The translations under genes were made by a program, and so were the position numbers. From a virus: a stretch of 37,140 bases of DNA. The notes below the pieces were generated by a model that did no database searches, was not told the origin of the DNA, and was given only the letters and a program-made list of their open reading frames with translations. Every line of letters begins with the position of its first letter. Position 1 is the first letter of the stretch. The DNA lies in the IMG/VR virus record IMGVR_UViG_3300022188_000004, positions 1-37,140 of that record. One strand, 5' to 3'. Shown piece by piece: positions 128 to 37,140 of this stretch.

Positions 128-2618
128 CAATATGTATGGGAGAATAGATGTAGATAGATACTATAACGGGTGCGAAAAACTACAGAACTTTATCGTACTC
201 CCACAGGGTGGAGTTACCCGCAGGCCCGGAATGGAATACCTTGACCTTGTAGGCTTAACCGGCTTAAAGACATACACTAATGGCAAGGCAAGGCTCATTC
301 CCTTCATCTTCTCAAGCGAACAGAACTATATGTTGCTGTTCGGTGACAAATACATGATACCCTATACCAATGGCGGTGCAGTAATTCATACCACTGCCTC
401 TACTCCAGAATGGCAGTCCGACGTAGAATACAGCAAGGGGGACTATGTCCACACAACAGAAGGATATATCTACAGGTGTTTACAAGACCATACTTCTAGT
501 TCTAGTAATGCCCCAGAAGACCCATATAATGACTATTGGGAAAGGGCAATAAGCTACTACATAGAGACGCCGTACTCAGCAGATGATTTGGACAAGCTGA
601 AGTATGCCCAATCGGCTGATGTTATATACTTTGTTCACCCTGATTATCCTCCGATGAAACTTACCCGTACATGGGACGAAACATACAGTTATTACAAGTT
701 TGCTTTCTCTGAAATGGAATTCAAGAAAGGACCATTTATGGACCCGTGTACAGACTGCGATTATATCATCATTAGCGGCTCCACGGGTGATATTGGAGAA
801 ACTGTAACTGTAACTGCTGCAGATTCCATTTTCTCTTCTACAGATGTGGGTAGATGGATTAAAGTAAGATATACAGTTGAGGCCGAAACAGTATCCTCCG
901 GCGTGCATAGCGGAGACGGCACTCAATGGTCTTCTGATTCGTGGGAGGTAGATGGCGATTGGGAATTCAGAGCGTCTTTTGCCAATAGCCCATCAGGCGA
1001 TATTTGGTATTTGCAGTTCTCTATAGACGGTGGAACAACATGGCGTAATTATTATGCCATAGACGACAGGATAAACACGACAATTGAAGGCTCTGCTTCT
1101 GCTGAGGATTTAGGGGCACAAAGTGGGATATTACCACAATTTAGAATATACACAGAAGACGCCAAAAGCGAAATAACTTGGAACTTTAGAGTGAAAAAGA
1201 GCACTAGGATTGGATATATAAAGATAACCGGCTATACCTCTGGCACAGAAGTGACTGGAGAATTGCAGTCAACATTAAAGTGGCTTAATCAAAAGACGTA
1301 TTCCTTTGCCCTAGGAGCATGGAGTTATACTACAGGTTTCCCCGCAAGCATTACTTTTCATGATGGCAGGTTGTGGTTTGGAGGCAATAAAACATATCCT
1401 AACAGGGTATGGGCTAGCAAGTCTGATGATTATGAAAACTTTGAAGAAACCGACGAAAGCGATGGAGCATTAAGCCTGCAGCCTACAGCAAGTGAAGTTA
1501 ACACGGTAATATGGATGGCAAGCAAGGGCAATATGCTTGTTGGGACTGCCGGAGACGAATGGGTGTTCGATGGGGCTAATGTCTCTCCTGACGACCCGCC
1601 AAAAGCAAGAAGGGAGACCAATTTTGGCAGTCAAGACACGCAAGCAGTTGTTGCCAACGGTTATGCTGTGTTCGTGCAGTATGGTGGCAAAAAAGTTAGG
1701 CATATCGAATATGATTGGGCTAGTGATACATATTATGCCTTTGACTTGACCGTAATGAGCGACCACATAGCCGGAAGTGGAGTTAAAAGGCTAGCTTATT
1801 TGAAGTCCCCTTGGAGCACTATTTGGGTTACACGCAACGATGGAAAGCTCCTTGGGTTGACTTATGTTCCGGAACAAAAGGTTTATGCATGGCATGTTCA
1901 TGATACACAGGACGGGGAAATTGAAGATGTAGCAGCTATTCCGGGCGAATTGTGGGTGATTGTCAACAGAAAGTTGCCAAGCGGGTCTTATTACAGGTTT
2001 ATTGAGCGAATAACCGAATGGGACGGGGACTTAAACAATGCTATATTCTTAGACCATGCCATTACCATAGAAGACCCCGCAGCATGGACTGACAATAGGC
2101 TATATATAGATTGGCAGTTAGCTGTAGCCCCTTTACAGATGACTGATGATTGGGACGGAGCAAAACTTGATGTTTACGCTGATGGGAAATATAGGGGGCT
2201 ATTTACGCTCCATTATGACGGCGGGTCTCAAAAGTATTACCTAGACTTGCCGGAACAATATACCAAAGTGACCATAGGGTTGCCGTATGACAGCATTCTC
2301 AAGCCGATGAACTTTGAACACACCGCAGCTCCGGACACCACACAGGGACTACACAGAAGGCTTATACACGCTGTGCCTAGATTGGTCAATACTGTAGGCG
2401 GTTTTGTTGGACATAATGAGGAAGATGTATATAGGATACGATACCCAAAGAAAGAGGGACGTCCAAATGTGGTGTCTCCGGAACCATTTACAGGAGACGC
2501 TGACAGAATAGCCTTAAATGCTCCATTTGGCTTTGGGCAATATGTTGTACTTAAGCAGGACGAACCGTATCCAATGACCATATCCAGTATTATTGTGCGA
2601 TTGGAGATGGCACAATGA
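75..2618 (+). CDS. Tail nozzle / tail tubular protein B (T7 gp12-like)
   Basis: This 847-residue protein is the probable distal tail-tube (nozzle) protein of a short-tailed phage. The N terminus has the recognisable podovirus pattern: an NFTAGELSP motif at about residues 10-18, then a GRIDVDRYYNGC stretch and an LPQGGVTRRPG motif near residue 45. The length is close to T7 gp12 (794 residues). The start ATG overlaps the stop of the gp11-like adaptor as TAATG, and the same adaptor-nozzle gene order is found in T7-like phages. The gene also overlaps the next by four bases, so the tail and ejection proteins look translationally coupled. The assignment rests on motif memory and gene order; the middle of the protein (around residues 230-400) is probably an inserted beta-rich domain. 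Confidence 0.85.
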   Translation: MRLIDHFITNFTAGELSPNMYGRIDVDRYYNGCEKLQNFIVLPQGGVTRRPGMEYLDLVGLTGLKTYTNGKARLIPFIFSSEQNYMLLFGDKYMIPYTNGGAVIHTTASTPEWQSDVEYSKGDYVHTTEGYIYRCLQDHTSSSSNAPEDPYNDYWERAISYYIETPYSADDLDKLKYAQSADVIYFVHPDYPPMKLTRTWDETYSYYKFAFSEMEFKKGPFMDPCTDCDYIIISGSTGDIGETVTVTAADSIFSSTDVGRWIKVRYTVEAETVSSGVHSGDGTQWSSDSWEVDGDWEFRASFANSPSGDIWYLQFSIDGGTTWRNYYAIDDRINTTIEGSASAEDLGAQSGILPQFRIYTEDAKSEITWNFRVKKSTRIGYIKITGYTSGTEVTGELQSTLKWLNQKTYSFALGAWSYTTGFPASITFHDGRLWFGGNKTYPNRVWASKSDDYENFEETDESDGALSLQPTASEVNTVIWMASKGNMLVGTAGDEWVFDGANVSPDDPPKARRETNFGSQDTQAVVANGYAVFVQYGGKKVRHIEYDWASDTYYAFDLTVMSDHIAGSGVKRLAYLKSPWSTIWVTRNDGKLLGLTYVPEQKVYAWHVHDTQDGEIEDVAAIPGELWVIVNRKLPSGSYYRFIERITEWDGDLNNAIFLDHAITIEDPAAWTDNRLYIDWQLAVAPLQMTDDWDGAKLDVYADGKYRGLFTLHYDGGSQKYYLDLPEQYTKVTIGLPYDSILKPMNFEHTAAPDTTQGLHRRLIHAVPRLVNTVGGFVGHNEEDVYRIRYPKKEGRPNVVSPEPFTGDADRIALNAPFGFGQYVVLKQDEPYPMTISSIIVRLEMAQ

Positions 2619-3019
2619 TAAAGGAAGTCCCTTACAAGATAGAACATGCCTACGCATTAGGCATAGACCCTTACGCAATGATGTTGCATGACGAAAGCAT
2701 GCCGGCAAAGACGCTTATCCTTCCAGATGGCAAGCCTATATGCAGTTTTGGGGTTAGAGTAGCACATGGCGGGACTGGGGAATGTTGGCTAGTGACAGGC
2801 GAGGATTTTCAGAAATACAGCCTATCTGCATGTAAGGCTATACGTAAACATTTAGCTACATGTCAAGAGGAATATAACATAAGCAAATTGACAGCAACGG
2901 TAGATATAGACAATGAAACGCACGTGAAATTTATACGCTGGTTGGGGTTTACGGTGACATTGGGCATTTTCTACGCAGCATGTTCAGATGAAATGTTTCT
3001 GGTGGTGATGAAGCCATGA
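2615..3019 (+). CDS. Internal virion protein A-like (T7 gp13-like, GNAT fold)
   Basis: This 134-residue protein sits directly after the nozzle gene and before the gp14- to gp16-like genes, exactly where T7 gp13 lies. It resembles the DUF2833 / gp13 family: a GNAT-like layout with a strand-loop pattern around residues 45-65 (GKPICSFGVRV...TGECWLVTG), a helix (ACKAIRKHL) and a C-terminal ETHVKFIRWLGF segment typical of acetyltransferase-fold proteins. In T7 the protein is needed for making infectious particles; whether it has any enzyme activity is not known from this sequence. ATGA overlaps join it to both neighbours. Confidence 0.7.
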   Translation: MIKEVPYKIEHAYALGIDPYAMMLHDESMPAKTLILPDGKPICSFGVRVAHGGTGECWLVTGEDFQKYSLSACKAIRKHLATCQEEYNISKLTATVDIDNETHVKFIRWLGFTVTLGIFYAACSDEMFLVVMKP

Positions 3020-3672
3020 GTAGCGGGTTTAGTGGGATAGCGGTTGCGCTGCAAGGAGTCTCTGCAATAGCTAGAGCATACGCGCAGTATCAAGCTGCGG
3101 AAGCTCAAGCAGCTGCTGCTAGAGCACAGGCAGAGGCGATGAAGTATAATGCACAGGTAGCAAAGCAAGATGAAGAGATGGTTAGACAGCGTACTTCTTA
3201 TGAAGCCATGCTTATACGAAGACAAGCAGCAGCCTTGTTGGCTAAGCAAAAGCAGGCTTATGCCTCTAGGGGATTTGCAACAACCACAGGGACGCCTTTA
3301 GCTATTATAAGTGAAACATCTAGAAAGTTAGAGGAAGACAGGGCAATGAAGATGTTTATAGGCGATATAGAAGCCATGAGGCAGAGTTCGACTGCTAAAC
3401 TTTACAACATGAAAGCACGCAGCCTTTTATCTTCAGCTGGTTATTATGAGGACATCGGCACATGGGGAGCACTCACCACAGGGCTAGCAGGACTTGGACA
3501 AACTGCAGTTACGGCACAGGAATTAGGATTGTTCACAAAGCCACAAAAGGAACCCACAAGCGTTGCTACTTCCCCAGACAATATAGCAGATGTAGCCAAC
3601 ACCTACGGATATGATTGGCGATACAAGGAAATATTTGACCCAAGCAAATGGGGAATGGGGGAGGTCTTATAA
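3016..3672 (+). CDS. Internal virion protein B-like (T7 gp14-like)
   Basis: This 218-residue protein is the first of three probable DNA-ejection proteins. It is rich in alanine and glutamine, with a long helical stretch at about residues 20-75 (tandem AQA/AAA patterns) that could form a coiled coil or insert in a membrane, as T7 gp14 does in the outer membrane during ejection. A GFATTTGTPL motif near residue 90 is common in podovirus gp14-like proteins. It overlaps the preceding gene by an ATGA and is followed with no gap by the 533-residue core protein. Identity rests on composition, this motif and gene order. Confidence 0.65.
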   Translation: MSSGFSGIAVALQGVSAIARAYAQYQAAEAQAAAARAQAEAMKYNAQVAKQDEEMVRQRTSYEAMLIRRQAAALLAKQKQAYASRGFATTTGTPLAIISETSRKLEEDRAMKMFIGDIEAMRQSSTAKLYNMKARSLLSSAGYYEDIGTWGALTTGLAGLGQTAVTAQELGLFTKPQKEPTSVATSPDNIADVANTYGYDWRYKEIFDPSKWGMGEVL

Positions 3673-5274
3673 ATGGCAGACAAGATACCTACCTATGAAA
3701 AACAAATATTGCCACCGAAACAGGGCCCTGCTGTAGAAACCCCCTTTGCTATGGACGAAGCAGCGAAAGCACAGGCTTATGGGGCAAAAACATTAGAACA
3801 GTCTGCAGCTAGCCTTTATTGGGCTTCCAAAGACTTAAAACAACTTGCTCTCAAAGAGCGTAAAGACAAGCAGGCAGCAGACTTTGCTTATTTGTTTGCT
3901 TCCACTAAAAAACAAGCCCAGCTTAAAATGATAGAAATTATGGAGAATACTCCGTATGAACAATGGGCTGAAAAATGGGAGAAAGAAAGACCACAAATTT
4001 TTGAGTCCGCCCTCAAGCAGGCTAAAGACCCAGAGGTTGCCCAAGCCCTTCAGGAAGCTCTACCCAGCTTCTTGGTGACTCTTGATGTTGAGCTTGCAGT
4101 TAAACAAGCCGAAAAGCGCCATGAGGAAGGTCAGGCTGAAGTATTGGACGCTCTCAACATGTACGTAGAGAGTGGTGACATGGAGGGCTTCTTGGCTAAT
4201 CTTACCTATTTCAAAGAGAACACTCAGTACTTTGGCTCCAAGAAATGGCTTGAGATAGAGCAGTCTATGGGTGCTCAGTTAGAAAAGAATGTTTTAATTC
4301 AGCAGATTATGGCTAGTCCTTACGGAGTAGACTTGGATAAGGTTGAGACAAAGTATTTAGACGCAGAGGACATTTATACCCTCAAGGCTAGGCAAAGAAC
4401 TATGCAGAATGCACTAGAGAGTGAGCGAAACGACAACGAAGATAAAATATTTCAGAGTTGGATGGAAGAATACATTAATACGGGATATTTTCCCACCCCG
4501 AAAGAAATTACAGAAGTGTACCACCAACGCTTCAAAGACACCCCACTTAATCTGTTAAGTGAACAGGGATACATGCAGGCTGTCAAACTATCTGAAACCA
4601 TACATAATCGACAATCTAAGGGCAAGAAAAGAGTAGACCCGCCCTTAGGGGTTGCATTAAAGAACTACCAAAAGTACGACGACATGCTCACTAAAGCAAG
4701 CACAGAAGAGCTTAATGCGTTTGAGTTGATAATAAATAGAGCTTATGAGGCAGGAGAAATACTCAAAGAGCAAAGAGACGACTTGTTAGATAGGGTCAAA
4801 AATATTAAGAAAGGAATATATGAAGGGCGAGAGGTAGTGATAGACACCTACAAAGCAAACACTAAAAACTTAATAGACCAACTTCTAAAGGTGGGTGCTG
4901 TTGATGAAAGTGGTGCTTATGTATTGCTAGGAGACCTTTATGGTGTGTTAGAGGACGCTGTAAAGAATACCGATAGGCAAACTATGGCGGATGTACTTGC
5001 TGAAAGATATAGCGAAAAAATAAAACGAGCTGTAGAATTGGGACTTATTAAGCCAACAGATAAGCGTGATTGGATTACTGGAATGAAGAAAAAACAAATG
5101 TCTCTCGAAAAGCTATTCATGTCATTTGGATTGCCTGAAGAGGAAGCTGAGGAAATAGCAGAGTTTTCCGTTGAGGGCATAGCTTGGACTAAAGAGGTTA
5201 GCAATCCTAAAGTTCAACAATCTATATTTGACTCCATACATCAGGACATTGGTGGGGGAGGTCTTGGCCAATGA
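3673..5274 (+). CDS. Internal core protein (T7 gp15-like)
   Basis: This 533-residue, highly charged and almost entirely helical protein follows the gp14-like gene immediately and overlaps the gp16-like gene by four bases (ATGA). No enzymatic motif is visible. Its place between gp14-like and gp16-like genes and its alpha-helical repeat-like makeup fit an ejectosome protein such as T7 gp15, though it is shorter than T7 gp15 (747 residues). The function is inferred mainly from position. Confidence 0.55.
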   Translation: MADKIPTYEKQILPPKQGPAVETPFAMDEAAKAQAYGAKTLEQSAASLYWASKDLKQLALKERKDKQAADFAYLFASTKKQAQLKMIEIMENTPYEQWAEKWEKERPQIFESALKQAKDPEVAQALQEALPSFLVTLDVELAVKQAEKRHEEGQAEVLDALNMYVESGDMEGFLANLTYFKENTQYFGSKKWLEIEQSMGAQLEKNVLIQQIMASPYGVDLDKVETKYLDAEDIYTLKARQRTMQNALESERNDNEDKIFQSWMEEYINTGYFPTPKEITEVYHQRFKDTPLNLLSEQGYMQAVKLSETIHNRQSKGKKRVDPPLGVALKNYQKYDDMLTKASTEELNAFELIINRAYEAGEILKEQRDDLLDRVKNIKKGIYEGREVVIDTYKANTKNLIDQLLKVGAVDESGAYVLLGDLYGVLEDAVKNTDRQTMADVLAERYSEKIKRAVELGLIKPTDKRDWITGMKKKQMSLEKLFMSFGLPEEEAEEIAEFSVEGIAWTKEVSNPKVQQSIFDSIHQDIGGGGLGQ

Positions 5275-8200
5275 GCATAGTCCCCAGATTTAAGGAAGGA
5301 ATACCGCCAGATTTATTAGAGCTATACCAGAGGAATACGGTAGAAGTGCCAGTCATTTCTACTTCTATACCTACAATTACACATCTTAGAGGAATACCTG
5401 CGCCCAAAGATTGGCACGAATTACAGTTAATGTATCCCAAACTTAATAAAACTATCGAAACAGCAAAGGCCAATAACCTTACACCAGATCAAACACATGA
5501 ACTTATCAAGCAGGCTATTGCCCACGAGGTGTTAGCCAACGACAAGTCGTATTCAGAGGTAGCAGAAGAGTTTGGCATCACAAACGATTCTATTAGGCTA
5601 TATATGGCGTATAAATCACACAAAACTAACGTAACGACACAGATTCTTACCGGCAAGACTCTGCATAAAGCAGCCGAGATTGCCTACTACTCTGATTATT
5701 TCAACCTCCCAGAACAGGTAATCGAAGCTGACCCTGAAAAGTTCAGATTGTTATACCAAAACGAGCCAGAATGGCTTAGACAGACAAAGATGGTAAAAAA
5801 AGACCCTACTAGTTGGCTGTTTACAAGTGCTAACGCAAAGGACGCACTAGACCAACGCAAAAAATCAGCTATAAAAGAGGCGGTCTTCAGCGACCCTGGG
5901 CTTATGGAATATAGGGACTTTCTGAACAACCATAAAGGACTTAAGGTTATTTCTCAAATTTCAAGCGGTATGGGGTCTACAGCGGGCAAGCTCCTGCAGG
6001 CGGTATCCTTATTAGACAAAAAGATTCCCTTTCTTAATTTAGATTGGCTAGAGGAAAAAGGTGCCGAGATAGAGGCTATGGGGGCCTACATGGTTGAAGG
6101 GATGGAGGACACGTATGGCAGGCAACTCGCAGAAGCCTTTGGAACTATGTCTGTATTTGTGCCTATAGGCTTGCTCATCGCTCATCTTGCTCCCCCTGTA
6201 GCTGTTGGTTCTCTTGGTGCGTGGATAGCATCAGCTTTAGGCGCAACCGCTAAGGCAACTACCGAAGCCATCATAGACGCCAGAGATGTTTATAATAGGG
6301 TGTATGTTGCCACAGGCGACAAACAGAGAGCATATCGTGCTGGTTGGGTTGGTTTCTTAGCTGAAGCTGCGGTTACTGGTCTAATCGACAGTATAACGCT
6401 GTTTAACCCTACTATTGGCCATGTATTAAAGCGCTTTGTGATGTCTGGTATTGGTGAGTCTGTACAAGAAGTTGCCCAAAACCAGATTCAACAACTTGTA
6501 GAAACAAGGCATATTTGGGATAAAGACGACTTTAAGAGCGCCCTGTCTACTGTTGCCGTTTCCTTCCCTATAGGTGGTGTGTTTGGCGCTGCTACTGGGA
6601 CTTCCGTCGATGCGATTGCCAAGCGTTTTGAAAAGCTGGGGCTAGACAAAGAAAGCGCTCATAAGGCTGCCCAAATAGTAGCCAAAGACGGAGAAAAGGC
6701 TATTGAGGTGGTGTCTGAGGTTGAAGAGAAAATTGGTAGTGGGGAACTAAAAGACACAACAGCTCAAACAAAAGGACTACCCAAAATTCAGGAAGTTGTG
6801 GAAAAAGTCCAAGAGGGCGAAGCTACCCAAGAGGATGTCGCTAAGACAATTGACGAGCTGGAGATAAGCGAAGAAGAAATAGACGCCATAGGAGATTTAG
6901 CCGACCTTCTCCAGTATAAGGGCGAGCTCAATCAAGAAACAATTAAAGAGAAGCTAAAGTCTTATCTGGAAGACGAAAGCTCCGTTGAAGAAGAGTTAAA
7001 AGCCATCTTCGACTTGCAGGTCTTTGGCAGAACTACGCCTGAAATAGAAACTATGCTTATCAGCAGAATACAACAAATGACCAAGGGGCAACTCAAGCAG
7101 AGGATTAAAAATACCGAAGACCCTAAACAAAGGCTCAAGATTATTGAAGAGTATTTAGCCAAAGAAGCCTTTAGAAGGCTAACTCAGAAAATAGGGGAAA
7201 TAGAAGGGGTAGCCACGAAAGCCTTAAATGGCGAAAAAGAGAATATTGAGCCTAGGATAATACATATTATAAAAGCATTGAGCAATATTAAAAAAGGTGT
7301 TAAAGTCGAAGAGTCAATAGAAATAGTCAAGCGTACTGTTAAGAACTTTAATAATAAAAATTTGGTTGATGAAGACGGAACACCTATCAGGTTAAATGCT
7401 GACGAATTGCTTAGTATGGTTACAAAACCCAAAGACCAGCTTACATACGGCGACGTGCTTAAATACTATAACAAAATTAAACACATGGTAAAAGTTGGGG
7501 AACAGATAGGGGAAGCCAAAAGGAAGCAACGCCAAGCCAAGGTAGACGCAGCCATGGAAGTAACTAAACACGGAAGCGTCTTAACCACCAAGGTAATGGA
7601 TAGAGCGTTGAGCGATATACTCAAAAAACGTGGCATGACTTGGAAACAGCTTGCTGAAGCTCTTGGTATTCCTAAAGTTAAGTCCAAAAAAGATATTTTA
7701 AGGTACTTCAAAGAAAACTTCAAAGCTAAACATTTAGAAGAAGCTATAGAGATGGCGCTTAACATAGGTGAGGTTTTAGGAATAGAAAACATCCTAGACG
7801 AAGTCGCCAAGGTCGCCAATAGGCTTAACATCAAAGCGAAACACCAGAAAGGCGAAACGGCTAGCTGGAAGGCATTCTTTAGGAATGCTCCATCATTTGC
7901 GATAGGGTTTCACAGGTTGGCAGACGTTGTGGCTAATACTACGACAGGTGCCAAGACGGCCCTACATGAGATATTAACACATGGGCCGGCTAGGGCGTTC
8001 AGTGCTTACATAGAGGCAAAGGCTAACAGAACAATCGAGCTGGTCAAAGACGCCAGAGAGGCTTTTGGCAAGAAGTGGGCTAAGCGCATGTCGGAAAAGG
8101 TGAAAATTGATGGTTTTACCTTCACTAGAGAGCAACTTATGGGTATATATGGCATCAACAAAACTAGAGGTGGTAGGAAAGCCCTTATAGAAGGCGAGGG

Positions 8201-17104: not shown

Positions 17105-17425
17105 CTACTCCTCCTTCTTCTTTGGTCTATTATCCTCTCCCACATCTCTTAACTGATATGCAAGTAGGAACAACACATTGCAACAAGCATGGGCTAAGTG
17201 GTTAATCCCGCTTTCTGGGTCGATGTCTTCCTTTTTCTGCCACCAAGAGGCAAGATGTCTCATTGCTGCAGAGAAAGGTCTATCCCAAGACATTCCTTTT
17301 TCCCAATTGCGAGCTTCATATTTTGCTTCGCCATAATTTAGAACCTTTACGACTTCCTCTAAGGCGTCGAACGGCAATAATGCGTATTTGGGCTTGCCAT
17401 AATCGTGCTTGATAGCCATAGACAT
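17105..17425 (-). CDS. DUF5664 dATP/dGTP diphosphohydrolase-like (MazG superfamily)
   Basis: This 106-residue protein matches the DUF5664 / dATP-dGTP diphosphohydrolase family: KHDYGKPKYALLPFDALEEV at the start, YGEAKYEARNWEKG at about 31-44, AAMRHLASWW at 53-62, and a helix NHLAHACCNVLFLLAYQL at 75-92 carrying the all-alpha NTP pyrophosphatase pattern. It would cut nucleoside triphosphates, probably shaping the nucleotide pool. Relatives called MazZ serve phages with 2-aminoadenine DNA, but the other enzymes for that (PurZ, DatZ) are not visible here. Operon member with a TAGAGGAGGG site. Confidence 0.82.
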   Translation of the reverse strand: MSMAIKHDYGKPKYALLPFDALEEVVKVLNYGEAKYEARNWEKGMSWDRPFSAAMRHLASWWQKKEDIDPESGINHLAHACCNVLFLLAYQLRDVGEDNRPKKKEE

Positions 17426-25121: not shown

Positions 25122-25147
25122 CCCCGCCAAACCGGCGGGGCCTTTTT
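25122..25147 (+). terminator. GC-rich hairpin with + strand T-run
   Basis: CCCCGCC pairs with GGCGGGG (25,122-25,128 with 25,134-25,140) around a 5-base loop, then CC and five T on the + strand, touching the leftward stop codon of the ring nuclease gene. It is an intrinsic terminator for + strand RNA, not for the leftward message. Confidence 0.65.
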
Positions 25148-25466
25148 ATGCCAACCTTTTGATTGCCTTCAACTCGTAAGGAAGAGCCTTCAGCTCCTCC
25201 TCACTGAGTACCTTGCCCTCAGGCAACCTCTGAAGCAGCTTAAAGCAAAGCGCCTCGTCGGTTACCTCATATTTTACCTGTGTCCGATTAACGGGGACAT
25301 CAACGCCAAGGAGCGCTGAAAGCACTTTTGCTGTTCCCTCGTGACCGACGGCAGAAGTAAAGTTGCCATCAGCCACCCACCTCTTTGCCTGCTCTAGCGA
25401 AACAGTCTTCATTTGATATAGCCCGTCATTGGGCAAAACTGTTGTGTTCATAATAAACTTTCTCAT
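25146..25466 (-). CDS. acrIII-1: AcrIII-1-like anti-CRISPR ring nuclease (DUF1874)
   Basis: This 106-residue protein matches the DUF1874 / AcrIII-1 family. These viral enzymes destroy cyclic tetra-adenylate, the alarm molecule of type III CRISPR, and so switch off its helper nucleases. The family pattern is clear: N-terminal FIMNTTVLPNDGLY, a VSLEQAKRWV helix, SAVGHEGTAKVLSALLG with the catalytic-type His42, then NR at 60-61, and QRLPEGKVL with Arg80 and Glu83 spaced as in the characterised archaeal-virus protein. The length is usual for the family. It is the first gene of the main leftward operon (GGGAGGAG site), as expected of a protein needed early. What I see is the motif set; activity is inferred. 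Confidence 0.88.
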   Translation of the reverse strand: MRKFIMNTTVLPNDGLYQMKTVSLEQAKRWVADGNFTSAVGHEGTAKVLSALLGVDVPVNRTQVKYEVTDEALCFKLLQRLPEGKVLSEEELKALPYELKAIKRLA

Positions 25467-25901
25467 TGTATCTCCTCCCTTTGAAATGTAATTTTCTCTC
25501 TCTGTTCACGCTATTCAATTGTCAAGGTTCAAGTCTACCTTACTACACCCAGCCTATATGTCAAGGGCCTTGGGAAGAAGTCTAAATTTTCAGAATTGTT
25601 CTACAATGAGGGCTAGAATTTCAGAGGCCGACCATGTTTCGGCAAGTTTTGCAAGTTGCCGGACTATTCTAAATGTTCTGGAATGTATACAGGACGGAAG
25701 GTTCTGGAAGTTCTGAATAGTCTGGAAATTCTGAAATGTACACACGTGTACTATGCCTTGATGTATGCAATTGTCAAGATGCACAATAAAAAATACCCAC
25801 ACAAACAAGCATTATGCTTGTCTATGTGGGTTGATATTATTTTATTTGGTTAGAAAAATACTAATGCCTATTATGTTATCGCCTGCTTTCTTTTGCTTTC
25901 T
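25467..25901. other. Noncoding region with TTCTGRA-like motifs between leftward units
   Basis: No convincing gene lies here. On the + strand 25,588-25,735 holds many close copies of TTC(A/T)GAA or TTCTGGAA, some back to back (25,701-25,735), resembling half-sites of the palindrome at 27,910-27,926. The leftward strand carries three TTGACA hexamers (ending near 25,525, 25,550 and 25,772) without a convincing -10 at normal spacing, so the operon promoter is probably here but is not pinned down. The terminator of the upstream unit is at 25,787-25,831. Confidence 0.6.
25787..25831 (-). terminator. Strong terminator of amidoligase unit
   Basis: A long hairpin: ACAAGCA/TGCTTGT around a TTA loop (25,805-25,821) inside an outer CCCACA/TGTGGG stem (25,796-25,830). 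Read leftward it is followed by TATTTTTTATT, so it is a strong intrinsic terminator ending the two-gene unit about 70 bases after its last stop. Confidence 0.88.
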
Positions 25902-26624
25902 TTATATGTCTACGTCGTAATATTCCCATGAGTATTTTACATCATTATTGCGCAAATAAGAGTAGTAAGAATATGGATATGTTGCATCGTATATGCTCAC
26001 GTTTTTCCATGCCTTACAATTGACCGAGTATCCACGGCCTAATTTTTTTGTGTCCAAAAAACGGAATAGCCTCGTTGGAAAACTGGACGCAAACAAGCAA
26101 TGGCCGCTCCATTGTGCTAGCTGACCGCTACCTTTTGCAACAAAAGGCACACCTTCTAAACATCCCACGAACACGCTTTCCATGTTCTCTGAAAGAAACT
26201 TTGCCACGTGCGTGGCATTTTGCGGGTTACCTGCAATGAAAAGAGAACGGAAAATTGCTTCTGTATCTGTAGTGTTGTAGAAACTTGCGAGCGTTAAGAA
26301 ATCGTATTCCGTGCCGTTCATCGCAAGACAAGAATTGCCATATACGTACGGATGGCAATTTTTGTCGCTTTTTTGACCGACGCTTGCTATTCTTGTGTGC
26401 CATATTGCGATATCGTAATCTTCATCAACCATTGCTTCATAGCTATGCCGTGCTGTAAAATGAAGGCCTTTTTCAAAATATACAATCTTGCGATTGCGTA
26501 CTAATACCAATCCGTTTCCATGGCCACCTGCTTCTTTCTCTAGATGAGCGAGCAGGTACTCCAAAGAATATGAATCATCGTATTCTAGCAAATCCTTCTT
26601 TTCCCCTAGCAATACTCTGCACAT
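25902..26624 (-). CDS. Class II glutamine amidotransferase (Ntn hydrolase)
   Basis: This 240-residue protein begins MCRVLLG, so removal of Met exposes Cys2 as the N-terminal nucleophile of class II glutamine amidotransferases. Other family motifs follow in order: GGHGNG at 33-38, WHTRIASVG at 75-83, NCHPY at 89-93 and AMNGTEYD at 101-108. It should release ammonia from glutamine or perform a related amide transfer. It starts one base after the amidoligase stop (TAACATG), so the two are made together, the expected pairing of an ammonia supplier and an amide-forming ligase. CpG-rich codons set this pair apart from the rest of the phage. Confidence 0.88.
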   Translation of the reverse strand: MCRVLLGEKKDLLEYDDSYSLEYLLAHLEKEAGGHGNGLVLVRNRKIVYFEKGLHFTARHSYEAMVDEDYDIAIWHTRIASVGQKSDKNCHPYVYGNSCLAMNGTEYDFLTLASFYNTTDTEAIFRSLFIAGNPQNATHVAKFLSENMESVFVGCLEGVPFVAKGSGQLAQWSGHCLFASSFPTRLFRFLDTKKLGRGYSVNCKAWKNVSIYDATYPYSYYSYLRNNDVKYSWEYYDVDI

Positions 26625-26625
26625 G

Positions 26626-27729
26626 TTATATCAACCGCCTTTCTTTCAGATAATCTATTAGAAACTTGTTTTTATTGCTTATTTCTATTAGCTCGTCAAT
26701 AAATTTTTTATCGCTTTGTTGTTTGACAGTATCTTCATCGTGTTGTATGCAATATCTTACAAGAGCATCGACTAATGACAGCGTAGCAATGATAGTCTGA
26801 TACTTTAACGTGCCGCGGAATATTCTTATTTCTACCGTGTGGTCGTTTGTTAGGTTTATTGCTCGATAACGATTAAAAAACGTAGCATCCTTGTTCTTTT
26901 TAATCTCATCTATTACGTCATATATATCATCTCCATATCTAGAGGCCCATCGCTCAAGCTGCGAGCGAGTACGGCGCGAAAATCTCAAGAAAAAGTCAAA
27001 ATGCAATTCGATGCAATTGAGCAGGTTTGCGATAGTCGTTTCGCTTAAAGGGGCCCTGGACACGTGCACATGAAGACCACACGTGCCGGCATCGTGCGAG
27101 CGATAACCTAATTCCACGGCCTTTTCGCAAAATGCTTCTAATCGTGGGAACAGGTTTTCCTTCATGTAGAGAAAAGACATGGGATGACACACAAGCTCAA
27201 AGCCATCGTCCAGGCTTCCGTCGTGCTTTGCGTACCATCCCTCACCGAGGATGTTTAGCAATTCCATTGCTTTGTCGACATCCTCACCGCCATCGTCGAG
27301 TTCGAGCTCGATGCCGTAAAAAACGCTTTCGTTTTCATTATCTAAGGAATAAAAACGAAAGCGTGGTTTAAAATTATATGAATAAATATAGTCGCCGTCG
27401 CCGTCGCTCTGTTCGACTATTTCATCATAGCAGTAGTGGCAATATACTTCATCATTAACCCATCGCGCATCCTCGCAATGCACAAATTCTCCACATCGGG
27501 TACATGTATAGTACCATCCGATGTAGCAATCGTCGCACATGAAATCGCCGCGGCTGTCGTAACGGCATGTTTCAACGTGCACCATTGTGCCACATATTGG
27601 ACAGCGCTCGAAATGCCTATTTAGGCACTCCTCGCACACAAGGCCATAGCCATCAATTTCCTGCATTGTACCGCTATCGAAATAGCGGCCGCAAACCTCG
27701 CAGCGCTCGAGCGCTTCGTTACTACTCAT
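26626..27729 (-). CDS. Amidoligase with three N-terminal zinc-ribbon-like repeats
   Basis: This 367-residue protein has two parts. Residues 10-100 hold three tandem CxxC-(17 or 18)-CxxC units (Cys10/13/32/35, 43/46/65/68, 76/79/97/100), a LIM-like or zinc-ribbon array. Residues about 135-310 match the Amidoligase_2 family, a glutamine-synthetase-fold COOH-NH2 ligase: GIELE at 139-143, KHDGS at 168-172, FELVCHPM at 177-184, GLHVHVS at 218-224 and VEIRIFRGT at 299-307. Such enzymes join a carboxyl to an amine using ATP, forming peptide-like bonds on proteins or small molecules. The zinc array probably selects the target, which is unknown. First gene of a self-contained unit with its own promoter and terminator. 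Confidence 0.87.
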   Translation of the reverse strand: MSSNEALERCEVCGRYFDSGTMQEIDGYGLVCEECLNRHFERCPICGTMVHVETCRYDSRGDFMCDDCYIGWYYTCTRCGEFVHCEDARWVNDEVYCHYCYDEIVEQSDGDGDYIYSYNFKPRFRFYSLDNENESVFYGIELELDDGGEDVDKAMELLNILGEGWYAKHDGSLDDGFELVCHPMSFLYMKENLFPRLEAFCEKAVELGYRSHDAGTCGLHVHVSRAPLSETTIANLLNCIELHFDFFLRFSRRTRSQLERWASRYGDDIYDVIDEIKKNKDATFFNRYRAINLTNDHTVEIRIFRGTLKYQTIIATLSLVDALVRYCIQHDEDTVKQQSDKKFIDELIEISNKNKFLIDYLKERRLI

Positions 27730-27762
27730 TTTTACCCGCCCCTCTCTATTTGATTTTATTCT

Positions 27763-27790
27763 ATCGTATCATTTCAAGCACAAAATGCAA
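27763..27790 (-). promoter_or_regulatory. Leftward promoter for amidoligase unit
   Basis: On the leftward strand TTGCAT (27,785-27,790) and TACGAT (27,763-27,768) are separated by 16 bases, a fair sigma-70 match about 35 bases before the ATG at 27,729. Spacing is slightly short. Confidence 0.5.
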
Positions 27791-27837
27791 GCATCCCACG
27801 AAAAGACTAAATCTTAAAAATATTCTGAATTGTATAC

Positions 27838-27869
27838 GGTTAAGGTCAGTAATGGTTAAGGTCAGTAAT
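27838..27869. repeat. 16-base tandem repeat x2
   Basis: GGTTAAGGTCAGTAAT occurs twice without a gap (27,838-27,853, 27,854-27,869), followed by looser GTCAAAGTCAAC and TTGGTCAAG copies. Probable protein-binding sites between the divergent promoters. Confidence 0.8.
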
Positions 27870-27909
27870 AGTCAAAGTCAACATTGGTCAAGAAATCCAG
27901 CAATTTGGT

Positions 27910-27926
27910 AAATATTCAGAATATTT
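27910..27926. promoter_or_regulatory. 17-base palindromic operator candidate
   Basis: AAATATTCAGAATATTT is a perfect palindrome around a central A. A related AAATATTCTGAAT site lies at 27,818-27,830, and similar half-sites occur before the second leftward unit (25.59-25.74 kb). It resembles a repressor or regulator operator. Confidence 0.6.
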
Positions 27927-27948
27927 GGTAATATTTGGGAATATTTGG
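27921..27948. repeat. Phased ATATTTGG repeats (10-base period, x3)
   Basis: ATATTTGG starts at 27,921, 27,931 and 27,941, exactly one helical turn apart, 23 bases upstream of the -35 box of the consensus promoter. This is the placing of an activator array or an UP-like element. Confidence 0.75.
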
Positions 27949-27971
27949 AATTGTAAAGAGTAGTTCCAATA

Positions 27972-28000
27972 TTGACACATTTTGCACTTTAGCGTATAAT
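27972..28000 (+). promoter_or_regulatory. Perfect sigma-70 consensus promoter
   Basis: TTGACA at 27,972-27,977 and TATAAT at 27,995-28,000 with a 17-base spacer, the full vegetative consensus. Transcription should start near 28,007 and read rightward into a long leader with no gene until 28,817. Confidence 0.88.
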
Positions 28001-28154
28001 GGGCCCATAGTGGGGTATTGCGTACTTGCGCAAATGCCCGCCGGTTGAATTTAGCCGGTTAAAGCTGCTAGTTTTAAACTTTCGCTGGCTTAAACGCCTC
28101 AAGAACTTCTCCAGCAACAACACAAAAACAACACGCCTTGGTGGTTATTTTCAT

Positions 28155-28239
28155 GCTCTGAAGCATGCAAGAAACAAGCTCGGGCATGCTTAAAGCTCTG
28201 AAGCATGCCAAATACTGCAAGCTAAGCTTTCAAGCATGC
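28155..28239. repeat. AAGCATGC iteron-like cluster
   Basis: AAGCATGC occurs at 28,161-28,168, inverted at 28,184-28,191, at 28,201-28,208 and at 28,232-28,239. The first and third are part of an exact 14-base repeat GCTCTGAAGCATGC 40 bases apart. Looser copies continue to 28,680. Confidence 0.8.
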
Positions 28240-28759
28240 AATCGGGTTTGTACATGGCTTAATGCAAGTTTAATTCCCGCTAGATACTGAAGCTTTTACA
28301 AAGCAAGGCATGAAGCATACCGGAACAGAGTAAGAGCATTGCTTAAACGATGATGTGTGAAGCTAGAGCAGGACTGAAGCTATGAAGCATGAAAGTAGAA
28401 GCGAGACAAAAACCATGTTTCATCACATAATCCTATTGTCCTACATTTCCTACCTGGTCTTAATACCAACTCTTAATACCTGCTCACAACAATGCTTTAC
28501 AGAGTTAAACCCTCCATGAAGCATAAACATGCTGGAAAGTAAGTCAATGCAACATAAAGTATGTTATGGGACATGCTGGGTATTAGGGTTGCTTTAATTC
28601 TGTGGAGGGTTGAATATACTGGTACTGGTAGGGGTACCATCCCCCAATTGAAGTGGCCGAGGCGGCTTAAAGCATACACACACTATACAGCAAATTTTTT
28701 GCAATTAATACACACCTAAACTAGGGCTTTGCTTGCAATTAACATGCATTCAGTTAATC

Positions 28760-28799
28760 GGTCGCAAATGGTCGTAATTGGTCGTAATTGGTGTTATTC
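28760..28799. repeat. 10-base tandem repeat GGTCGTAATT
   Basis: Four contiguous 10-base units, GGTCGCAAAT, GGTCGTAATT, GGTCGTAATT, GGTGTTATTC, end just before the ribosome site of the first rightward gene. They lie one helical turn apart and could bind a regulator. They also cover a false upstream ATG at 28,778. Confidence 0.75.
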
Positions 28800-28816
28800 T
28801 GTTAGAGGAGGAATTT

Positions 28817-29068
28817 GTGTTGAGGAAATGCATAGCTAAACCTAATGTTATTTTTGAGTTTATTCAGTGGGACGGCGACAACCTCACTGAAATTTCTGAG
28901 GAAGTTGGAGAATATTGCCGTATAGAAAATGGGCAATTGACCGTTGAAGGTAGAGTTGTTGGGCTAGGCGACTATATCGTCAAGACCCCAGAGGGTGAGG
29001 TTTATCCTTGCAACATTCATCTCTTCAGAAGCATCTTTCAAGATGCAATTCTTAATTCCTCGCTCTAA
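28817..29068 (+). CDS. Conserved small phage protein (LGDYIVKTPEGEVYPC family)
   Basis: The start is placed at GTG 28,817 (or TTG 28,820, better spaced) because GAGGAGG lies 5 to 8 bases upstream; the earlier ATG at 28,778 is in the repeat array. The roughly 83-residue protein has VIFEFIQWDGDN near its start and LGDYIVKTPEGEVYPCNIHLF near its end, a pattern widespread in Firmicutes phages. Function is unknown. First gene of the rightward unit. Confidence 0.8.
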   Translation: MLRKCIAKPNVIFEFIQWDGDNLTEISEEVGEYCRIENGQLTVEGRVVGLGDYIVKTPEGEVYPCNIHLFRSIFQDAILNSSL

Positions 29069-29108
29069 TTGTTGGCTTGTGTTAGTTGTAGTTAGCGCAA
29101 GTTTGGTT

Positions 29109-29138
29109 GCGTTAAGCTGAATTGGTTATGCTTAACGC
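29109..29138 (+). terminator. Hairpin after first rightward gene
   Basis: GCGTTAAGC (29,109-29,117) pairs perfectly with GCTTAACGC (29,130-29,138), followed by TATTTGCATTTT. A weak terminator or attenuator; the next promoter follows within 10 bases. Confidence 0.5.
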
Positions 29139-29141
29139 TAT

Positions 29142-29170
29142 TTGCATTTTGTGCTTGTTTGTGGTATATT
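29142..29170 (+). promoter_or_regulatory. Sigma-70 promoter
   Basis: TTGCAT (29,142-29,147), 17-base spacer, TATATT (29,165-29,170). It would start RNA near 29,177, only about 12 bases before the TTG start of the next gene. Confidence 0.65.
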
Positions 29171-29188
29171 CACTTAGGGGTGTTTATT

Positions 29189-29464
29189 TTGAAGTTAATA
29201 GCAGCTAGTCAATGGTTTAATTTAGGGGATATATCTGACATTGTTGGGCCTATTGAGTTGCTTTTTGAGGAACATGAGGATTACGTTTGCCCGTTTTGCG
29301 GAAGGCCGTTTAGCAGACATGGAGTAATCCGAGACACGTTAAGCATTGTTTGTCCTGGAAACTATGTAGCGTTTATAGAGGCCGATGACAAAGTTGAAGT
29401 TATATCTTGTTCGCCAGGGCTTTTACAAAAGACATTTCCGGCTAAAGAGGGAGAATATCTTTAA
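29189..29464 (+). CDS. Small protein with CxxC, probable zinc binding
   Basis: I place the start at TTG 29,189, after TAGGGGTG, because the ATG at 29,159 lies inside the promoter. The 91-residue product has CPFCGRPFSRHG near residue 33 and a further cysteine in LSIVCPGNYV, suggesting a single zinc site, then a beta-rich tail. Function unknown; lies between the small conserved gene and the putative RNA. Confidence 0.68.
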   Translation: MKLIAASQWFNLGDISDIVGPIELLFEEHEDYVCPFCGRPFSRHGVIRDTLSIVCPGNYVAFIEADDKVEVISCSPGLLQKTFPAKEGEYL

Positions 29465-29494
29465 TTTCCTTCCCTCTAATTGAGTGTTTTGATC

Positions 29495-29523
29495 TTGATT
29501 TTTACTAAACTTTATGTTATAAT
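29495..29523 (+). promoter_or_regulatory. Strong sigma-70 promoter before putative RNA and terminase genes
   Basis: TTGATT (29,495-29,500), 17-base spacer, TATAAT (29,518-29,523). It would drive a noncoding RNA at about 29,530-29,690 and the small basic gene behind it, and may feed the late genes by read-through. Confidence 0.78.
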
Positions 29524-29529
29524 TGCCGC

Positions 29530-29690
29530 GTGCCTACGGGTGGTAAGTAGAAAAGCCTGAACCGATTGGAAGCAAAGGAAGCAAAGAAAAGAAAAACCTT
29601 AAAACCATTGAGCAGAAAAACAAGTTTTTCTGCTTGTCGTAGTCGCTAACGCGACAACGACCCTCTAATTCATTTCTCTTTTTTAGTTTC
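29530..29690 (+). ncRNA. Candidate structured small RNA
   Basis: Downstream of the strong promoter there is no ATG frame for 200 bases. Instead there are two stable elements: a perfect 10-base stem AGCAGAAAAA/TTTTTCTGCT with a CAAG loop (29,611-29,634), and a two-part stem GTCG..GTCGC/GCGAC..CGAC with a TAAC loop (29,636-29,661). The 5' half is purine-rich (AAGCAAAGGAAGCAAAG). It does not resemble a tRNA. A 27-codon TTG frame exists but lacks a ribosome site. The ends are inferred. Confidence 0.5.
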
Positions 29691-29725
29691 TTTCTAAAAG
29701 ACAATTAAGCCTGGAGATGATTAAC

Positions 29726-29863
29726 ATGCCTGCTGGATATGAAAGGCTGAGAGATAAGTTTATCCGTGAAGGAATGTCCAAGAAAGCAGCACAGAAGAAA
29801 GCTGCAAGGATATGGAATGCCAAGCATAAGGGTAAGGAAACAGTAGGCAGAGGTAGGGAATAA
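29726..29863 (+). CDS. Small basic protein (45 residues)
   Basis: ATG 29,726 follows CTGGAGATGAT. The protein (MPAGYERLRDKFIREGMSKK...) is strongly basic and helical, with a KAAQKKAARIWNAKHKGK stretch, and probably binds nucleic acid. Similar short basic proteins occur next to terminase genes in many phages. Its stop overlaps the start of a large terminator stem. Confidence 0.72.
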   Translation: MPAGYERLRDKFIREGMSKKAAQKKAARIWNAKHKGKETVGRGRE

Positions 29864-29946
29864 CACCAATCACCTAAAGCAGGGTTACCTGTATAGCTTT
29901 TGCTATAGTGCATTATGCACCTTTAGGTTTTGGTGTTATTTTTTAT
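29862..29946 (+). terminator. Branched terminator before terminase
   Basis: Outer stems AACACCAA/TTGGTGTT and ACCTAAAG/CTTTAGGT close around two small hairpins, TATAGC/GCTATA and GTGCA/TGCAC, and are followed by ATTTTTTAT. It is a branched intrinsic terminator just before the small terminase gene, a likely control point for late transcription. Confidence 0.8.
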
Positions 29947-29962
29947 AAAGTGAGGTGACGCT

Positions 29963-30466
29963 ATGACGTCAAGCGTAATGAAGCCAATGCCGGAGAATGT
30001 CAAGAAGTGGTATGTCCGTTACAAGGCATTAGGTCCCGGGAGGAACCCTCACAGGCTTTGGAAGCAAATAAAAGATGAGCCTGGGCGTCCTACATATCGA
30101 ACAATATGTGCCTGGAATGAAAAGTACCAATGGGACGCCAGGATAACTGCAGAGTTGGCTACTGCAATGACAGTTGAGGCCAACCTTACCAATGAGGTTG
30201 ACACTGCTGTCTTAAACAAAGAGACTTTATTTGAGATAGACAGGGCTATTCGCTCTATAAGGGACAAGCCGGAGAAGACAGAGAAGGAAGTATTAAGCCT
30301 AACCAAGCTGGTGGAGCTTAGGGCTAAAATAGCTCAGAAAATAGACGACGCAGAAGAGAAAGACCGCTTTAAGGTTGTTATAGAATACGTCACAAAGATA
30401 CGAAACCAGCTGGAGGAAGAGTTCCGTGACAAAGTTAACATGGCTAAAGCCCAAGAAACTAGCTAA
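29963..30466 (+). CDS. terS: Terminase small subunit
   Basis: This 167-residue protein precedes the large terminase and has the usual small-subunit layout: an N-terminal HTH-like region (about residues 8-45, including NPHRLWKQIKDEPGRPTYRT and WNEKYQWDARI) and a long C-terminal coiled-coil (80-160) for ring assembly. It should recognise phage DNA for packaging. TGAGGTGACGCT precedes the ATG. The 3' end overlaps the large-subunit gene by 41 bases. Confidence 0.78.
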   Translation: MTSSVMKPMPENVKKWYVRYKALGPGRNPHRLWKQIKDEPGRPTYRTICAWNEKYQWDARITAELATAMTVEANLTNEVDTAVLNKETLFEIDRAIRSIRDKPEKTEKEVLSLTKLVELRAKIAQKIDDAEEKDRFKVVIEYVTKIRNQLEEEFRDKVNMAKAQETS

Positions 30467-36515: not shown

Positions 36516-37088
36516 ATGGCAATAGACAGGGTGACAATATGCAATAAAGCTCTTCTTGCGATTGGAGCAAGTCTTATAACGTCTCTTACAGATGACACTA
36601 AGGAAGCCAAAGTGTGTGCGCTTGTATATGACGAATGCTTATGGGAGTTTTTGTCTGAGAATGATTGGTCTTTTGCGACTATTTCTGCCACACTCACGCC
36701 AAACGGAAATACGCCAACTGACGGCTATACCTATGCCTATAGTTTGCCTAATGACTTTTTAAGGCTTGTATATAATCCTGATTATGCTGTTTATGGTGTT
36801 GATGATTGGCGACTTGCAGGAAGTGAGATTCACTGCAATGCAGAGGAAATAACCATAAATTATATCAGCAGTAATATAAACGAATTTACCTTCCATGCGA
36901 AAGCTAGAACAGCTTTAGCATACTTAATTGCCTCCCAGGTTGGTATGGCTTTGTCTGGAAGCCCTGAGAAGGTGCAGATGGTTTATGAATTGTATAAAAT
37001 GACACTTATGGACGCAATAGCTATAGATTCACGCAGTAGGGCATATCAGCCTGTAGTTCAAACTCCATATACGGATGTGAGGCTATAA
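36516..37088 (+). CDS. Tail adaptor / tail tubular protein A (T7 gp11-like)
   Basis: This 190-residue protein matches the gp11-like adaptor family: AIDRVTICNKALLAIGASLI at the start, a DDTKEAKVCALVYDECLWEFL helix, W near residue 50, YAYSLPNDFLRLV at about 72-84 and an ITINYISS strand. It joins the portal to the nozzle. Length matches T7 gp11 (196). The TAA stop overlaps the next ATG as TAATG; the final 25 codons are repeated at window start. Confidence 0.92.
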   Translation: MAIDRVTICNKALLAIGASLITSLTDDTKEAKVCALVYDECLWEFLSENDWSFATISATLTPNGNTPTDGYTYAYSLPNDFLRLVYNPDYAVYGVDDWRLAGSEIHCNAEEITINYISSNINEFTFHAKARTALAYLIASQVGMALSGSPEKVQMVYELYKMTLMDAIAIDSRSRAYQPVVQTPYTDVRL

Positions 37089-37140
37089 TGAGGCTAATAG
37101 ACCATTTTATAACTAACTTTACAGCTGGAGAATTATCTCC
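37014..37140. repeat. Terminal direct repeat, right copy
   Basis: Exact copy of bases 1-127. Joining the two copies gives a circle of 37,013 bases in which the gp11-like gene is followed directly by the gp12-like gene with a TAATG stop/start overlap. Confidence 0.97.
37088..37140 (+). CDS. 5' end of gp12-like nozzle gene (repeat copy)
   Basis: These 53 bases repeat the start of the gene at 75-2,618, which continues from the left end of the window across the circle junction. Not a separate gene. Confidence 0.95.
   Translation, partial: MRLIDHFITNFTAGELS

Follow-up and report, generated by a model that had tools for sequence, protein, structure and literature searches.

The stretch of DNA analysed here, hereafter the window, is an entire IMG/VR virus record of 37.1 kb. 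Its first 127 bases recur exactly at its far end as a direct repeat (1-127 = 37014-37140), and the record is therefore probably a complete genome, circular or terminally redundant. The phage encodes podovirus-like particle genes (a T7-type head-tail adaptor, terminase and tail genes) and carries its early region, with genes for Erf, a Cas4-type exonuclease and a DnaD-like loader, on the minus strand. At the end of this early region lies a two-gene cassette, which has the following features in and beside it:

25146-25466, minus strand: DUF1874/STIV B116-like gene (PF08960, E 1.9e-28)
25795-25831, minus strand: intrinsic terminator at the 3' end of the cassette, a 17-bp stem and a T run
25902-26624, minus strand: predicted class II glutaminase gene (240 aa), Ntn type, of a divergent subfamily
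26626-27729, minus strand: Amidoligase_2 gene (367 aa), a predicted GS-fold carboxylate-amine ligase with an N-terminal array of three zinc-finger units
26810-27315, minus strand: motifs of the ligase catalytic core, G139-x-E141-x-E143, D170-G-S172, E178, G218-x-H220-x-H222, Y288/N292 and T298-x-E300-x-R302
27323-27364, minus strand: terminator-like hairpin within the amidoligase reading frame, at the boundary of zinc fingers and catalytic core (17-bp stem, T run, -22.2 kcal/mol, z -5.5)
27430-27702, minus strand: three CxxC-x17/18-CxxC LIM-like units, within ligase residues 10-100

The two open reading frames are intact and co-directional and meet at TAA-C-ATG, one base apart, as a preliminary description made from the sequence had stated. 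It was equally right about a strong terminator: the hairpin that ends the cassette has a folding energy of -27.9 kcal/mol and a z of -6.2. The promoter that it assigned to the cassette was not confirmed. Consensus promoter matches around the cassette number 8, against 7.6 expected by chance from shuffled sequence, and those on the correct strand 5' of the cassette are two weak ones (9/12). The hairpin inside the ligase gene showed no general conservation when sought in relatives; shorter counterparts occur near the same place in three loci (L089, L098 and L154). An Rfam search of positions 25400-30000 returned no RNA.

On profile and model evidence, the 367-aa protein is an Amidoligase_2 with a GS-like fold, predicted to carry out ATP-dependent amide ligation. 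It scores 35 bits against PF12224 (cutoff 22; E 1.8e-8) and matches phrog_16683 (5.8e-56), and its catalytic motif residues are invariant in alignments with 6, 57 and 60 relatives. The AlphaFold2 model has a mean pLDDT of 90.8 (rows from the annotated phage collection were left out of the alignments for structure prediction), and the solved folds nearest to it are YbdK, gamma-glutamylmethylamide synthetase, glutamine synthetase and the Pup deamidase Dop. N-terminal to the catalytic core, the zinc-finger units occupy residues 10-35, 43-68 and 76-100. Their 12 cysteines are at least 90% conserved in family alignments of 57 and 60 rows, and LIM domains are the closest, if weak, PDB matches of the region in both sequence and fold searches. 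These fingers presumably choose the ligase's target.

The 240-aa protein matches the GATase_6 profile (33 bits, cutoff 27; E 7e-8) and keeps the class II signature: the nucleophile Cys2, R78, the N103-G104 oxyanion hole and D120. These residues, together with H76, H91 and P92, are present in 147/147 aligned relatives; H102 is replaced by Met in the window phage and two relatives. Residues 1-183 are modelled as an Ntn glutaminase fold, with GlmS the top match and EgtC also close, and the last 57 residues have very low model confidence. A first hint that this protein is divergent was a tblastn search of the phage collection, which gave no match. Scans of IMG/VR with the ligase or the glutaminase as a single sequence likewise gave none, and a profile from six relatives was required. 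The family and motifs of the ligase, its three CxxC...CxxC units and a class II glutaminase with an N-terminal Cys had all been put forward in the preliminary description, and all stand.

Confirmed matches to the six-relative profile numbered 541 in viral records and 475 in genomes, and the best 80 of each were used. Among loci with sufficient sequence downstream, a class II glutaminase lies directly downstream on the same strand in 65 of 75 viral loci and 76 of 78 genome loci; these counts describe the best-scoring relatives and are not a rate for all Amidoligase_2 proteins. Conserved pairing, proposed earlier as a check on the cassette, is thus plain among these relatives. The genes are usually separated by 0-5 bp or overlap slightly, and a search for fused ligase-glutaminase reading frames among the loci found none. 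One locus (L003) was scored as unpaired through an earlier alternative glutaminase start, and has an MC start 5 bp past the ligase. In the 10 of 75 viral relatives that have no adjacent glutaminase, one encoded elsewhere may act in trans, or the ligase may manage with free ammonia. Chance pairing is rejected by the correlation of ligase and glutaminase distance matrices (r = 0.92 over 129 pairs; 0/500 permutations).

Nearly all of the genome loci, taken as the best 80 of 475, come from Oscillospirales or related gut Clostridia. In 55 of these 80, a gene for a resolvase, relaxase or integrase lies within 5 kb, and 16 host genomes hold between one and ten matches each, decayed copies with stops included. 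This mobile, multi-copy distribution points to a putative common function in conflict or takeover. DUF960 is found in 31 of the 80 loci, usually immediately 5' of the ligase, and several loci have DUF3846 after the glutaminase. Loci L113, L119 and L166, from the series L087-L166, are examples of these possible third components; the literature searched held nothing linking DUF960 or DUF3846 with an amidoligase. The earlier characterization of the cassette as a self-contained system therefore calls for qualification: roughly 30 bacterial copies add DUF960 and some add DUF3846, and ligases of the window's type normally pair with a different kind of glutaminase.

This mismatch is seen when the two proteins are placed separately. 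In a tree, the window ligase falls on a long branch inside an Oscillospirales clade (support 98). Modules in Oscillospirales mobile elements (L093, L087 and L125, for example) resemble the window in having three zinc-finger units and an adjacent glutaminase, and their nearest ligases are 37-44% identical to the window's over the full length and about 50-53% over the core. Their glutaminases differ: they are about 300 aa long, of an MCCLFG type, and many are accompanied by an upstream DUF960. The arrangement of these modules recurs in MT839723, a phage record from human faeces. Where other pairs have ligases of equal identity, their glutaminases are 44-45% identical (5th percentile 0.39-0.40), whereas the window glutaminase is 20% identical to those of its nearest ligase relatives, with a maximum of 23%. 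It groups instead with that of a viral locus, L015 (38% identity, support 99). The IMG/VR phages L192 and L015/L193 carry glutaminases of the window's subfamily (36-40% identity) beside zinc-finger amidoligases, and share with it the motifs MCR..., GGHGNG and AMNGTE. A second scan placed the L192 glutaminase between two zinc-finger amidoligases (2066-7060) and found in L194 a glutaminase of this subfamily with no zinc-finger amidoligase within 4 kb.

Because the ligase sits in the Oscillospirales clade and the glutaminase belongs to a distant subfamily, the glutaminase partner of the window phage was probably exchanged. That the glutaminase alone diverged very rapidly is less probable, since motifs specific to the subfamily are common to the window and L015, whose ligases are only about 31-35% alike. 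Ligase type and glutaminase type thus appear separable in these comparisons, with the glutaminase a replaceable subunit. If so, this compact two-gene cassette is a case in which even a tightly matched pair has changed its glutaminase, a sign that specificity may lie with the zinc-finger ligase.

The cassette is a separately acquired accessory module, as its CpG anomaly and its absence from a colinear phage indicate. The CpG observed/expected ratio is 1.53 for the ligase gene and 1.19 for the glutaminase gene, against 0.41-0.88 in 30 other genes tested; CGN codons make up 73% and 70% of their arginine codons, and both genes are atypical in codon divergence (z of 4.0 and 2.3). The 32.9-kb phage G005 is colinear with the window, with matching structural genes that are mostly 44-72% identical and a few that are lower. 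Neither an amidoligase nor a glutaminase was found in G005, and unrelated small genes fill that end of its early region. Separate acquisition had been suggested earlier from CpG-rich codon use, and both composition and comparison agree. The preliminary description had named profile mismatch, lack of co-occurrence and ordinary codon use as counting against it; the profiles match, the genes co-occur and the codon use is unusual.

The pairing itself is not new. Amidoligase/GATase pairs had been reported from Marvin, from LUZ24-like phages and from phages of OM43 bacteria (PMC10580990, PMC3890496, PMC11318856, PMC11253131), and predictions of how phage amidoligase modules work chemically go back to 2009 (Iyer et al., 2009, as relayed in papers that cite it). 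In Marvin (gp105/gp106) and the OM43 phages (MEP401/402), as in the window, a PF12224-type ligase is followed on the same strand by an adjacent class II glutaminase that starts with MC. The window ligase is only 22-28% identical to gp105 and MEP402, and these phages have another glutaminase subfamily and lack the full three-unit array; no further ligase partners are annotated beside either pair. The phiEco32/LUZ24-like phages (Iyer et al., 2009; UFV-P2 ORF23/25) resemble the window in that their early region includes both Amidoligase_2 and GATase_6, and UFV-P2 has nearby ATP-grasp, PF14395 and GGCT-type genes, none of which is among the window genes scanned. The literature searched yielded no functional experiments on, or substrate for, phage amidoligase modules, and no description of a multi-copy mobile-element distribution or of partner exchange.

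We propose that the cassette encodes a glutamine-dependent, amide-forming ligase that mobile elements use to alter a target in the host or in a rival, a reading that we consider probable by a narrow measure. The class II glutaminase would free ammonia from glutamine through its Cys2 nucleophile, and the GS-fold Amidoligase_2 would use ATP to activate a carboxylate, to which the nitrogen would then be joined. The target would be bound by the LIM-like zinc fingers at the N-terminus and would most likely be a macromolecule in the cytoplasm, such as a protein of the host or a precursor of wall or peptide. The phage would have taken the ligase from the Oscillospirales mobile-element pool, and during infection could use it to change the physiology of the host cell or to counter the host's defences or competing phages. 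We infer the ammonia coupling, the zinc-finger targeting and the role in infection; the folds themselves are predicted. Fold matches to GS-type ligases and to the glutaminases of GlmS and PurF count in favour of a coupled ligase, as do the conserved pairing and the fact that the window's partner gave way to another class II glutaminase and was not simply lost. The inclusion of stand-alone gamma-glutamyl hydrolases among class II GATase folds counts against it, as do the 10 of 75 viral relatives that lack an adjacent glutaminase.

Those hydrolases suggest a different division of labour, in which a gamma-glutamyl group, or one like it, is put on a substrate by the ligase and taken off again by the Ntn enzyme acting as a hydrolase. 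In ergothioneine synthesis, gamma-glutamyl intermediates are handled by the GS-fold EgtA and the class II EgtC, and the fold matches to EgtC, YbdK and gamma-glutamylmethylamide synthetase, with a weak NCBIfam match to YbdK, speak for such a writer and eraser. Amidoligases of other phages also adjoin gamma-glutamyl cyclotransferases (PMC11318856, PMC11253131). Among records related to the window, however, such a cyclotransferase is found in 3 of 40 viral ones and in none of the window genes scanned, and the closest matches of the glutaminase, in both sequence and fold, are the ammonia-donating GlmS and PurF; we consider this division of labour rather unlikely. A similarly modest probability attaches to amidation of peptidoglycan precursor carboxylates in the manner of MurT-GatD, which would alter receptors or lysozyme sensitivity and exclude other phages. 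MurT-GatD is a precedent for such amidation (PMC3267633), and a role of phiEco32-type modules in wall modification and superinfection is predicted in work cited in PMC10580990 and PMC11318856. Against it, a domain search of both proteins found no wall-binding domain, three zinc-finger units would better fit binding of a macromolecule, and the hosts of relatives (Mycobacterium, OM43 bacteria and Clostridia) differ in their walls.

The zinc fingers also bear on whether the pair could instead be an auxiliary metabolic cassette, making a small amide compound or peptide that has no part in conflict during infection. The authors of the OM43 phage study call their module an auxiliary metabolic gene (PMC10580990), and related GS-fold ligases do use small molecules. 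YbdK, gamma-glutamylmethylamide synthetase and PafA-Dop share the GS fold of the window's catalytic domain (weak, partial matches, TM about 0.3-0.4) and act on different substrates; we know of no zinc-finger array of this kind in any of them. The presence of three units in 76 of 81 ligase reading frames of the Oscillospirales copies, the mobile-element setting of the loci and the lack of biosynthetic genes seen near them make a metabolic role improbable. Mobile, multi-copy and sporadic distribution would also suit an antiphage defence or toxic system that the phage carries against competitors. PADLOC gave no match for the cassette, and no antitoxin-like partner that accompanies every locus was found; we regard such a system as very unlikely.

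The gene next to the cassette bears on a possible anti-defence role. The DUF1874/STIV B116-like family is the AcrIII-1 family of viral ring nucleases, which degrade the cyclic oligoadenylate of type III CRISPR systems. The product of 25146-25466 (minus strand), labelled Csx16 by PADLOC, retains a GHEGTA motif in which the His may be catalytic, and the gene is probably one for counter-defence. A more specific proposal would be a zinc-finger-guided, glutamine-dependent amidating enzyme with an interchangeable glutaminase, which mobile elements of gut Clostridia and their phages use as a counter-defence or takeover tool against a specific host protein; we hold it to be improbable. No AcrIII-1 gene was found in 40 other amidoligase-bearing viral records, which lowers the anti-defence reading; as a single case, the neighbour links the cassette weakly to anti-defence. 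Abundant multi-copy relatives in culturable gut Clostridia (Ruminococcus flavefaciens, Butyricicoccus and Oscillibacter) provide hosts in which the proposed ligase could be tested.

Elsewhere in the phage genome, a perfect TTGACA-17-TATAAT promoter lies on the plus strand at 27972-28000 and is followed at 28150-28400 by four copies of GCTCTGAAGCATGCAA, which have no Rfam match. The stretch of about 2 kb around these copies, before the terminase, has no clear genes. The reading frame at 17105-17425 (minus strand) matches the N-terminal domain of a dATP/dGTP diphosphohydrolase (PF18909, 3.5e-32) and is a possible nucleotide-pool gene.
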